DNA of 64,000 nucleotides from Cytophagaceae bacterium ABcell3 (GTDB taxonomy: Bacteria; Bacteroidota; Bacteroidia; Cytophagales; Cytophagaceae): contig CP133159.1 in assembly GCA_030913385.1 (NCBI GenBank), positions 3,432,584 through 3,496,583 of the forward strand, written 5' to 3'. Within the stretch, counting starts at the first letter, position 1; each line of letters starts with the position of its first letter. The notes beneath the pieces were generated by a model. It did no database searches. It was not told where the DNA came from and was given only the letters and a program-made list of their open reading frames with translations. The position numbers were made by a program, and so were the translations under genes. Below, in pieces: positions 5,557 through 38,512 of this stretch.

Positions 5557-5907
5557 ATGAACAAAGCTATAATAATATTAGGGTTAGCTGGCACGATCAG
5601 TTTAGTCTCCTGCGATGAAAGTGGCGAAGGAACAGAACGGCGTCCTGGAGCACCAGCAACAACAAGGGCAACACCTGGGCCAGAAGCAGGCGCTCCGACA
5701 ACAGAAGACCGGCCAATGGCGCCAAGAACAGACCCAACAGATACGGCAGTACAAGGCACTACCCCAGGAACTACTGCAGGGCCAGGAGCCGCAGATCCTG
5801 AAATGCCAGAACCTCCTCCTCCTCGTGAGACAGATCCGAGAGATGGAGAAGCTGGTACCACAGCCGGTCCTGACCAAAACACTACAGGAGGCGCGGAAGC
5901 AAGGTAA
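5557..5907 (+). CDS. Low-complexity Pro/Thr/Gly-rich lipoprotein
   Basis: The 116-residue product starts with a lipoprotein signal, MNKAIIILGLAGTISLVSC, with the acylated Cys in the lipobox LVSC at residue 19. The mature part is disordered and built from Pro, Thr, Gly, Ala, Glu and Asp, including a 'PEPPPPRE' run. It probably decorates the outer membrane as an extended linker-like protein; no function is known. The gene is clearly richer in G+C than its neighbours, and for this reason other frames are also open across it. The lipobox and the terminator right behind its stop codon make this frame the credible one. Confidence 0.7.
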   Translation: MNKAIIILGLAGTISLVSCDESGEGTERRPGAPATTRATPGPEAGAPTTEDRPMAPRTDPTDTAVQGTTPGTTAGPGAADPEMPEPPPPRETDPRDGEAGTTAGPDQNTTGGAEAR

Positions 5908-5908
5908 C

Positions 5909-5932
5909 AAAAGGGGAACGCCCCTTTTTTTT
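5909..5932 (+). terminator. Intrinsic terminator after the lipoprotein gene
   Basis: AAAAGGGG-AACG-CCCC followed by eight T begins 2 bp after the stop codon. The plus-strand T-tract makes it a standard Rho-independent terminator. Confidence 0.85.
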
Positions 5933-5994
5933 ATTATATTTTTTTATCATTTATCCAACATCCTAGCGTTTTACCTTAAAAAAGTACATAACTA

Positions 5995-6026
5995 TTGGAC
6001 TTTACCAAAACTTGTCCTTACCTTTG
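5995..6026 (+). promoter_or_regulatory. Candidate Bacteroidota promoter for the mgtE leader
   Basis: TTG at 5995-5997 and TACCTTTG at 6019-6026 are separated by 21 bp, matching the Bacteroidota sigma-A form TTG / TAnnTTTG. The predicted transcription start lies near 6033, which gives mgtE an untranslated leader of about 360 nt. Confidence 0.6.
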
Positions 6027-6032
6027 CAGCAT

Positions 6033-6395
6033 AAAAATATTTAAAAAAATGGATAGTACCCCCGGTCGAATACGGACCTTAATATTGTTCAACGCCCGTT
6101 GATCTGATTGCACCTTAGTAATCCCGATCAACTGGGATAACTTTGTGTAAACCATGGCTGTAAAAGCTTATATATACCCGAACGGTAAGTTTCATTTCAT
6201 TTATATATCACCAAACAAAGCTAAAATTAATAGCTTTTGCCCTAGCTGTCATTTTTCTTTTACCATGTGGCTCCCCGCACTCCTCATCCCTATTTAGAGG
6301 AAACTTTCATTATTCACCCTCCAAACTCGACAAAAAGAGCTTGGAAACTTTACTATAAGCGAAATAAATGTTAGGAAAAGGGAAAAAGGCTAATT
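6033..6395 (+). promoter_or_regulatory. Long mgtE leader with mutually exclusive stems (candidate cis-regulatory RNA)
   Basis: The stretch between promoter and mgtE has competing inverted repeats. TCAAC (6089-6093) can pair with GTTGA (6098-6102). Alternatively GTTGATC (6098-6104) pairs with GATCAAC (6126-6132), and ATCCC (6121-6125) with GGGAT (6134-6138). GGTC/GACC (6065-6080) forms a further short hairpin. Two small frames also lie here: a 17-codon one at 6050-6103 whose stop codon falls in the switching segment, and a 47-codon one at 6154-6297. Leaders sensing Mg2+ are known for mgtA and mgtE genes elsewhere (M-box, MgtL), but the M-box consensus was not recognised. Function is inferred from position and competing stems. 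Confidence 0.4.
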
Positions 6396-7775
6396 ATGTC
6401 TCAGGAAACGAAAGATGTACTGGTAAAAGAAATAACAGAAGGAAAAGAAGCGCGCCAAATGGTACCGGAAATGAAAAAACTGGCGCTGGTTGAGCTGAGC
6501 GAAATCCTGTCTAGCTTAGATGATCAGGTAGTCATTGACCTTATGCCGGAGTTCTCCACTGAACAGCAAGGTCTGATCCTTTCAGAGTTCGACGTTAAAA
6601 AGCAGCTCTCTCTTTTCCAAAAAAGCGATGCCCGATGGTTTGCCGGAGGTTTTCAGCACATGTACTCCGAGAGTCGTGCGGACTTGTTCCAGCACATGAC
6701 CCAGCAAGAGCAAGCTTCCCTTCTGCCATTTTTGCCCAAAAAGATACGCACAGACGTAATCCGATTAAGTGCTTACCCGCCAGAAACTGCTGGCGGTATT
6801 ATGAGTACCGACTTTGCCACTGTTTGGGAAGATATGACTTGTCAACAAGCCATTGCCAAGGTACGAATGGATGCCCCTTCCAAAAAGATGATCTACTATG
6901 TTTATGTAGTAGATGAAAACATGTGCCTGGCAGGGTTTATAACTCTAAAAGATCTAATATTAATAGAACCCGACACGAAGGTAAAAGACGCCCTTCACAA
7001 AGAATACATATTCGCACACGTAGACGATGACCGGGAAAATGTCGCTGCCAAGATTGAAAAGTATGACCTGGTAGCCATACCTGTTTTGAACAACCAAGGG
7101 CAGTTGGTGGGTATTGTAACCCATGATGAGGCTATTGAAGTAATACGTGCTGAACATACAGAAGACTTCGAAAAGTTTATGGGGATTATGCCCGACAAAG
7201 AAGAGGTTTTCTATCTACAAACCTCTAGTTGGAGCCATTTTAAAAAACGGGTAATCTGGGTAGTTTCATTAGCTATTATAGGCATCATTTCCGGAATGAT
7301 CATCCATAGTTTCGAATCCACCCTCGACAAATTATTGATTTTGGCCTTATACATGCCCATGGTAGCAGATACAGGAGGGAATGCAGGCAGTCAGGCCGCT
7401 ACAGTGGTGGTAAGGGCACTAGCCTTGGGACAGGTGTCTGTACGAAACTGGTGGCGTATTATCTGGAAAGAAGCACAGATATCCTTGCTATTGGCTATCT
7501 GTCTGGGCGTATTGGCTTTTGGCAAGGTACTTTTTCTATCTTGGGAAGCAGATATACCAGAAGTTTACAACCTTTTCCAGATAGCATCGGTCATCTCACT
7601 TGCACTATCCCTACAAGTGATAACAGCCACCATCATAGGAGCAAGTTTGCCACTTATTGTCAGAAGGTTTAAAGGTGATCCGGCAGTAGCGGCAAGTCCG
7701 GCCATTACCACTGTCGTGGACATCACCGGCCTGCTCATTTATTTTGGAACAGCAGTAGCTTTTCTAAGTCTTTAA
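6396..7775 (+). CDS. mgtE: Magnesium transporter MgtE
   Basis: The 459-residue product has the complete MgtE architecture. Residues about 30-130 form the N-terminal superhelical domain ('ALVELSEILSSLDDQVVIDLMPEFSTEQQGLIL'). Residues about 140-255 form a CBS pair ('TAGGIMSTDFATVWEDMTCQQAIAKVR' and 'YDLVAIPVLNNQGQLVGIVTHDEAIEVI'). Then come five transmembrane helices containing the signature 'YMPMVADTGGNAGSQAATVVVRAL', which lines the ion pore, and 'GDPAVAASPAITTVVDITGLLIYF'. In known MgtE the cytosolic domains bind Mg2+ and close the pore when internal Mg2+ is high. The gene is single, with its own promoter and a long leader that may add RNA-level control. Confidence 0.97.
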   Translation: MSQETKDVLVKEITEGKEARQMVPEMKKLALVELSEILSSLDDQVVIDLMPEFSTEQQGLILSEFDVKKQLSLFQKSDARWFAGGFQHMYSESRADLFQHMTQQEQASLLPFLPKKIRTDVIRLSAYPPETAGGIMSTDFATVWEDMTCQQAIAKVRMDAPSKKMIYYVYVVDENMCLAGFITLKDLILIEPDTKVKDALHKEYIFAHVDDDRENVAAKIEKYDLVAIPVLNNQGQLVGIVTHDEAIEVIRAEHTEDFEKFMGIMPDKEEVFYLQTSSWSHFKKRVIWVVSLAIIGIISGMIIHSFESTLDKLLILALYMPMVADTGGNAGSQAATVVVRALALGQVSVRNWWRIIWKEAQISLLLAICLGVLAFGKVLFLSWEADIPEVYNLFQIASVISLALSLQVITATIIGASLPLIVRRFKGDPAVAASPAITTVVDITGLLIYFGTAVAFLSL

Positions 7776-27581: not shown

Positions 27582-27643
27582 GCCTGAAACAGGCAATAGA
27601 AATATTCAACCTTGTTATTCGTGAGGCAAATCTTTTTTAAAAT

Positions 27644-27681
27644 AATGTAGAGGCGTTGCATGCTGCAATGCCTCTACATTA
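27644..27681. repeat. 17-bp hairpin after nadV (REP-like or terminator)
   Basis: AATGTAGAGGCGTTGCA, a 3-nt loop and TGCAATGCCTCTACATT pair over 17 positions with one G-T wobble. There is no T-run, so it is a poor classic terminator. Its symmetry resembles REP-type intergenic units. It lies between convergent genes nadV and the TonB receptor. Confidence 0.6.
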
Positions 27682-27739
27682 TGTCTCAGATACCATACCA
27701 AAGGAAACAAATGTTGGCGTTCACCCTCCCTTATTTTAA

Positions 27740-38385: not shown

Positions 38386-38414
38386 AAAAAAAGCCGCAAA
38401 ATGCGGCTTTTTTT
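38386..38414 (+). terminator. Intrinsic terminator after secG
   Basis: AAAAAAAGCCGC, a 5-nt loop and GCGGCTTTTTTT. It closes the miaB-secG transcription unit. Confidence 0.92.
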
Positions 38415-38512
38415 GTTTATAACATCTGGTCACTCTAAGAAAATACAATATAGCACGAAGCGTCTCCCCCTTCCCTCCTTATAACTCTTCTTTTCACATT
38501 TGTGTCTTAATT

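Follow-up and report, generated by a model that had tools for sequence, protein, structure and literature searches.

In E. coli and Salmonella full translation of the MgtL leader frame at high Mg2+ leaves a Rho site exposed, while at low Mg2+ ribosomes drop off at its EPDP sequence (Glu2, Pro3, Asp4) and mgtA is transcribed, according to the accessible part of one account (PMC11282234), and the available text of another ties the CC[C/U] codons at positions 3, 5 and 7 of MgtL to Mg2+-dependent m1G37 methylation (PMC6335274). The mgtCBR leader of Salmonella carries a second arrangement in which mgtP, a 17-codon frame containing proline, lies before mgtC with its last codons forming one arm of a stem-loop, and in which the ribosome site of mgtC can be masked by a stem-loop (PMC3641672, accessible part). 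In the Bacteroidota leader-peptide attenuation is suspected before amino-acid operons of Flavobacterium psychrophilum (PMC9723704) and short frames are described for B. thetaiotaomicron within long 5' UTRs (PMC7366714), with no Mg2+ transporter gene named in the accessible parts of either report. The phylum is said to lack Shine-Dalgarno (SD) sequences and its promoters are given a -33/-7 consensus of TTTG/TANNTTTG in the available text of PMC6847099. In the literature searched, with most subscription journals outside its scope, we found no description of an MgtL-like leader in Bacteroidota.

The locus described here lies in a 64,000-nt stretch of DNA (the window) from a single-contig genome of 5.1 Mb and comprises an mgtE gene together with a long leader (Table 1). 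The genome belongs to the order Cytophagales, as does G077, whose 4,359-base locus is identical to Flammeovirga pacifica. There is no close same-strand gene directly before the mgtE start, the nearest one upstream being a lipoprotein-like gene at 5557-5907. This small frame is rich in Pro, Gly, Thr, Ala and Glu and was assigned to no family in a Pfam search. A preliminary description of this DNA had proposed a promoter with a start near 6033, some 360 nt ahead of mgtE, and both points agree with what we found, namely a TTG-N21-TACCTTTG promoter of the Bacteroidota type and an mgtE gene beginning at 6396. Such pairs are not rare, as 13 TANNTTTG boxes with a TTG 18-23 nt before them occur in the 64 kb on both strands, a count in which the 5995-6026 promoter was itself classed as coding, with the frame 5615-6034 overlapping it.

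Table 1 Predicted and annotated features of the mgtE locus. Positions are counted from the first letter of the window.
Feature	Position	Strand	Basis
Predicted intrinsic terminator behind the lipoprotein-like gene 5557-5907	5909..5928	+	Terminator scan
Predicted sigma-ABfr type promoter: TTG 5995-5997, 21 nt, TACCTTTG 6019-6026; start ~6032-6033	5995..6026	+	Sequence match to consensus
Stretch aligning with the mgtC-mgtE leader of genome G032 (L095/L003)	6023..6062	+	BLAST, alignment against shuffles
Putative leader-peptide frame MDSTPGRIRTLILFNAR-stop; Asp-2 codon 6052-6054, Pro-5 CCC 6061-6063, TGA 6100-6102	6049..6102	+	Translation, M[D/E]xxP frames of relatives
Hairpin 1, over most of the leader-peptide frame	6050..6091	+	Folding
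Hairpin B, with 16 pairs and -19.3 kcal/mol; stop codon within the 5' arm	6095..6136	+	Folding
Second -7-like box TAACTTTG just 3' of hairpin B, without a -33 TTG	6138..6145	+	Box scan
Candidate pairings across the purine-rich stretch before mgtE	6230..6393	+	Folding, duplex search
C-rich, G-poor stretch (32 C, 10 G), possible Rho-loading region	6240..6335	+	Base composition
mgtE, Mg2+ channel/transporter, 459 aa	6396..7775	+	Pfam MgtE, CBS, MgtE_N

Close behind the promoter of this Mg2+ transporter gene, as in MgtL, there is a short frame of 17 codons which begins 22 nt after TACCTTTG, starts 347 nt and ends 293 nt before mgtE and encodes a peptide beginning MDSTP. It had already been noticed as a 17-codon frame ending inside a proposed RNA switch, and its TGA does fall in the 5' arm of hairpin B. 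The likeness to MgtL, as far as the accessible accounts describe it, extends to the acidic residue at position 2, the proline at position 5 and the early CC[C/U] codon (here CCC at codon 5). There is a single proline and no D-P pair, in distinction to the EPDP of MgtL. The frame also resembles the mgtP/mgtM attenuator of Salmonella, going by the available text on the latter, in its 17 codons with a proline and its end in a stem arm; it differs in that the Pro codons of mgtP stand at positions 10-12, where proline is the signal, and no consecutive Pro codons are found near the end of the window's frame.

Folding of the leader predicts two hairpins in its 5' part. Hairpin 1 comes out strong, with 9 outer pairs, in a fold of the 5' part by itself, but its pairing probability is only about 0.1 once the full leader is folded. 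Hairpin B is a 42-nt element of the form CCC-GTTGATC-GATTGC...GTAATC-GATCAAC-GGG whose stem holds one G-U pair, and it is stronger than expected by chance (z = -5.1, 0 of 1000 dinucleotide shuffles), its best 52-nt segment ranking 13th of 2336 intergenic segments from both strands of the 64 kb. The first 118 nt of the leader as a whole fold better than 200 of 200 shuffles (z -4.0), and the 3' part at 6150-6395 shows no unusual folding (z = -1.2). Hairpin B is followed by ATAACTTTGTGT and does not qualify as an intrinsic terminator in the sense of a GC-rich stem with a T run; the terminator scan listed only its small inner form at 6121-6138, one of 7 terminator-like sites between 5000 and 8000 where shuffles give 2.7. 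We discarded the idea of a repeat element, GTTGATC-N12-28-GATCAAC being present once in the genome, as well as that of a tRNA-like remnant, ARAGORN reporting none in the window. Two further hairpins in the window are a near-perfect intergenic palindrome at 27640-27685 (TAATGTAGAGGC...GCCTCTACATTA), which is among its strongest, and a strong terminator-like hairpin at 38390-38416 (AAAGCCGCAAAATGCGGCTTTTTTT).

The preliminary description had built its switch from shorter pairings in which GTTGA (6098-6102) would pair either with TCAAC (6089-6093) or with GATCAAC (6126-6132), with ATCCC (6121-6125) and GGGAT (6134-6138) as a third option. All of these segments are where they were said to be, but mutually exclusive 5-mers are no commoner here than by chance: in 701 of 1000 dinucleotide shuffles the leader has at least as many. 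The two weak alternative stems together reach -10.4 kcal/mol against -19.3 kcal/mol for hairpin B and are no competitor of it, and in the fold of the full leader each pairs with a probability of about 0.02. Beyond the long hairpin B the proposed switch stems, the GGGAT/ATCCC option among them, find no support.

Further downstream, the C/G ratio of the stretch at 6240-6335 is reached in 0.9% of 96-nt segments on both strands. Two helices could cover the ribosome site of mgtE, one joining 6248-6264 with 6374-6390 (15 pairs in the folded leader, pair probabilities 0.15-0.72) and the other 6230-6244 with 6379-6393, the best partner in a duplex search (-14.5 kcal/mol, p 0.05). Support for these two candidates is moderate and a strong SD switch is not seen before mgtE in this search.

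The comparison also covered the genes around related transporters. The 13 close MgtE orthologues (60-68%, outside MAGs) all lie behind an MgtC-family gene, identified by Pfam in four cases and by tblastn in the others, with little or no gap between the two genes in 12 of the 13 and a 167-residue frame between them in the remaining one (L002). The mgtC gene is Mg2+-associated. A search of 59 genomes with the leader DNA returned only short pieces outside its own locus; at low stringency BLAST gave matches before mgtC in G032, a genome belonging to another family than that of the window, and weaker ones in G057. The alignment with G032 runs from the end of the -7 box through the 5' UTR and the frame start into codon 5, reads TTTGCAGCAT.AAAATATTT.AA.AAATGGAT..AG.ACCCC and has a score of 27, which 0 of 2000 shuffles reached (shuffle maximum 16). 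The aligned stretch opens the frame MDSDPIGKTRKFKN in G032 and MDSDPISNTRQFKN in G057, both starting MDSDP with the D-P pair included. For five leaders resembling that of G032 (alignment A5) we obtained a common structure of two helices with 86.3% of cells paired and a covariation score that lies above slid controls and was reached by 6 of 500 shuffles, which is modest support for a conserved leader structure. An alignment of six hairpins (A4) was rejected as covariation evidence as its arms were misaligned.

The genome holds a second MgtE paralogue at G000:C1:4276759-4278123 (L085, L086), 60% identical and, by eye, behind a deaminase-like gene, before which no such leader was found. In Flammeovirga (L049-L052, L079-L082) another short frame, MTK[K/R]Y[S/T]QRTII..., stands 104-126 nt before mgtE and is perhaps another leader peptide; it begins 11 nt after TACTTTTG in 4 of the 5 named loci (L049-L052, not L048).

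We then surveyed the leaders of mgtC itself. MgtC searches gave matches in 17 of 390 genomes of the order at E <= 1e-45 and in 15 of 390 genomes of family f19 at E <= 1e-60, this family including Pleomorphovibrio marinus, a member of the Cyclobacteriaceae in the NCBI taxonomy, and all 31 distinct mgtC loci in Cytophagales were examined. Under a rule that calls for an ATG frame of 8-25 codons located 16-30 nt after TAnnTT[T/C]G and at most 350 nt from mgtC, 18 of the 31 loci have a frame and 13 have none. The motif M[D/E]xxP begins 14 of these 18 frames, the four that break it reading MADSSS..., MFYGAF..., MDTESE... and MDYSSQ.... By the same rule the window contains six frames and the one at 6049 is the sole motif match. 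None of 11 background frames drawn by this rule from the mgtC loci and the window carries the motif (Fisher p 4e-5), and the motif is likewise missing from all 39 non-family frames of a broader background limited to 8-20 codons; L112 (22 codons, no motif) falls outside that length range and was counted in the survey. Since these data also served to define the motif, the p-values are descriptive and not an independent test. The 15 motif leaders, the window included, come from five families (f1, f11, f15, f19 and f22), ten of them from f19. In these 15, codon 5 is CCC 13 times and CCT once, against a share of 22% CCC (106/476) for the proline codons of long frames at these loci (binomial p 2e-7).

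About 341 kb away in the same genome, a separate mgtC has the frame MDSNPDPEQQIVNF (MDSNPDP, with a D-P pair) after TACTTTTG, and the genome's second MgtC-like gene (39%, L093) has no such frame. In Lunatimonas lonarensis (L117/L046) no ATG frame precedes mgtC, and by eye a GTG frame, MEISFKRLKRTYRI, lies there about 20 nt after TAATTTTG; it was not counted. A look-alike frame in L029, MDSPSISTTRV, does not stand before mgtE and was dropped.

Taken with the hairpin at its stop codon, these comparisons suggest that the frame at 6049-6102 is very probably a functional leader peptide of the mgtC-leader class. The general layout of the class consists of a TAnnTTTG-like box, 18-28 nt, a frame of 11-18 codons and a hairpin at the frame end, with M-[D/E]-x-x-P as the typical start of the frame and CCC as the usual Pro-5 codon. 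The preliminary description had suggested a Mg2+-responsive leader or a leader-peptide attenuator, perhaps of a new class; the leader-peptide part is supported by the similar frames and box spacing before mgtC, and the particular switch is not, beyond hairpin B.

The identity of the signal is less secure. Among the inner residues Pro-5 (15 of the 18 listed peptides) is second in conservation only to position 2, and Salmonella mgtP answers proline limitation through its Pro codons (PMC3641672, accessible part), which raises the alternative that the peptide senses proline charging or the status of EF-P or tRNA-Pro in place of Mg2+, proline shortage acting as a signal of osmotic or other stress. 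We consider this unlikely since 9 of the 18 peptides, that of the window among them, hold a single proline and would make weak charge sensors, and since the acidic residue at position 2 is conserved alongside Pro-5 (17 of 18), two partners that better suit ribosome destabilisation. For the mgtE leader we put Mg2+ as the signal at slightly better than an even bet.

With respect to the frame ends, a hairpin at the stop codon is significant (p < 0.05) in 15 of 18 leaders, the window among them, and in 16 of 18 with other shuffles, as against 3 of 39 control frames, with a median z of -3.3 in leaders and -0.2 in controls (Mann-Whitney p 9e-8). Over the 17 other leaders, with the window left out, the combined p is 1e-15. 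The leader of the genome's own mgtC fails in the fixed 51-nt folding segment (p 0.29 and 0.24) and gives p 0.02 in a longer one chosen afterwards; it has a 9-pair helix between an anti-SD and the SD, ACCTCCTTT/AAAGGAGGT. In six f19 leaders (L107, L108, L110, L114, L116, L119), chosen after seeing the folds from 12 in that family, an anti-SD begins 5-10 nt past the stop inside the hairpin and can instead form a duplex with the mgtC SD of -10.7 to -14.5 kcal/mol, the sequences differing between leaders. Combining all 18 leaders gives the SD duplex a p of 5e-11, a figure in which L107 stands with a wrong start codon, and the duplex is not clearly above shuffles in L101 (p 0.25), L114 (p 0.15) and L118 (p 0.50). 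An output of the alternative structures is visible in the six f19 leaders and the SD helix of the genome's own mgtC, and is not clear before mgtE.

A different account would keep ATGGA-N7-CC and the hairpin as RNA structure, the frame being incidental. Codons 2 and 5 are conserved at the nucleotide level and in L118 (MDYSSQ) the CCC is shifted one base out of frame, both as this account would have it, but codon 2 alternates between D and E, codons 3-4 are free to vary and the base of the hairpin lies at the stop codon and at no fixed distance in frames of 11-18 codons, and we regard it as improbable.

We hold it to be improbable in similar degree that transcription starts at the second box, with the frame absent from the mgtE transcript and hairpin B a DNA operator or a chance palindrome. 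Transcription from this box would bypass the leader peptide; the box lies directly 3' of hairpin B and boxes of the first kind are, as noted above, not rare in the window. Against this, the second box lacks a -33 TTG, the alignment with relatives covers the first box and the frame, and the stem contains a G-U pair, which is allowed in RNA.

The preliminary description had also remarked that no M-box consensus was apparent, and searches bear this out. Rfam gave nothing at gathering score in the window and none of seven weak matches found on 5900-6450 up to E = 10 was an M-box, nor did any of 17 relative mgtC loci with family-like frames match Rfam at gathering score. The M-box (RF00380) was found in none of 59 genomes of the order, the window's own included, under strict filters in a search whose controls, the B. 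subtilis and L. lactis genomes, gave matches. The same mgtE family does have it in Bacteroidales, where an M-box of 84-149 bits precedes mgtE orthologues (57-62% identical) in 17 of 17 Bacteroidales/Bacteroidetes MAG loci (L032-L045, L047, L054, L055). An upstream alignment of these with the window's leader revealed only the Bacteroidales M-box and was set aside. A covariance model of the leader hairpins (R1), for which a single sequence was entered twice, recovers only its own locus in 76 sources, 39 genomes and, with stricter filters, 390 genomes of the order; without relatives outside the genome the window's hairpins therefore offer no covariation test. A Mg2+- or other ligand-binding riboswitch with no translated frame is very improbable; the folding of the 5' 118 nt and the 17 M-boxes would favour it, but there is no Rfam match, the hairpin model has no relative and the leaders share a frame and stop hairpin with no core.

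Sequence comparison thus yields the order of box, frame and hairpin, the motif, the codon bias, a hairpin at most stops and the anti-SD in six f19 leaders. From these we read the mgtE leader as probably a leader-peptide attenuator whose class also includes the leaders of many Cytophagales mgtC and mgtC-mgtE genes, with induction predicted at low Mg2+. With ample Mg2+ ribosomes would translate the frame to its end and open the hairpin. At low Mg2+ they would stall at M[D/E]xxP, the acidic-proline start, or drop off there, through destabilisation of the ribosome and/or poor reading of CCC by tRNA-Pro without m1G37. Following such failed translation the hairpin would close, and in f19 the mgtC SD would be freed or, elsewhere, premature termination blocked, either of which would allow the Mg2+ gene to be expressed. 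In the window hairpin B would be the structure governed by ribosome progress, and candidates for the mgtE output are a Rho-dependent stop in 6240-6335 or the weak ribosome-site helix. The proposed mechanism follows the enterobacterial logic because the parts are the same, that is an early acidic residue, a CCC proline, a stop hairpin and, where visible, a ribosome-site switch.

As in MgtL the downstream structure would depend on ribosome progress, here as a prediction. The leaders differ from that of mgtA in phylum and in the gene families served (mgtC/mgtE), only M[D/E]xxP being kept, and they show a stop hairpin and, in six f19 leaders, an anti-SD/SD switch where MgtL has a known Rho site. 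The likeness we propose is one of working, and we claim no common descent, convergence being as likely. We give an even chance to the broader proposal that Cytophagales possess a class of ribosome-based Mg2+ sensors of their own, independent of MgtL, in which failed translation of an M-[D/E]-x-x-P/CCC-5 peptide at low Mg2+ closes the stop hairpin and frees the mgtC SD or prevents termination before mgtE, and which takes the place of the M-box found before the same mgtE family in Bacteroidales.

Were this true, a second phylum would have come to use the ribosome's own need for Mg2+ as a sensor, and with the same pair of chemical features, an acidic residue together with an early CCC-encoded proline. 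Whether MgtL responds to destabilisation of the ribosome, to m1G37-tRNA-Pro or to proline would become open to a comparative test. The proposal would also account for how these transporters manage without the M-box of their Bacteroidales relatives, and would place an SD-based switch in a phylum said to lack such sequences.

Regarding the wider setting of the mgtC leaders, the apparent end of a histidine-kinase gene was seen by eye 91-104 nt before the leader frame in L095, L107, L109, L113, L116 and L119, that is in 6 of 7 loci (not L103), and the one tested with Pfam gave HATPase_c. Tandem TTCTAA-like repeats, again by eye, stand before the -7 box as they would for a response-regulator site, and together the kinase end and the repeats are reminiscent of the control of mgtC by PhoPQ.
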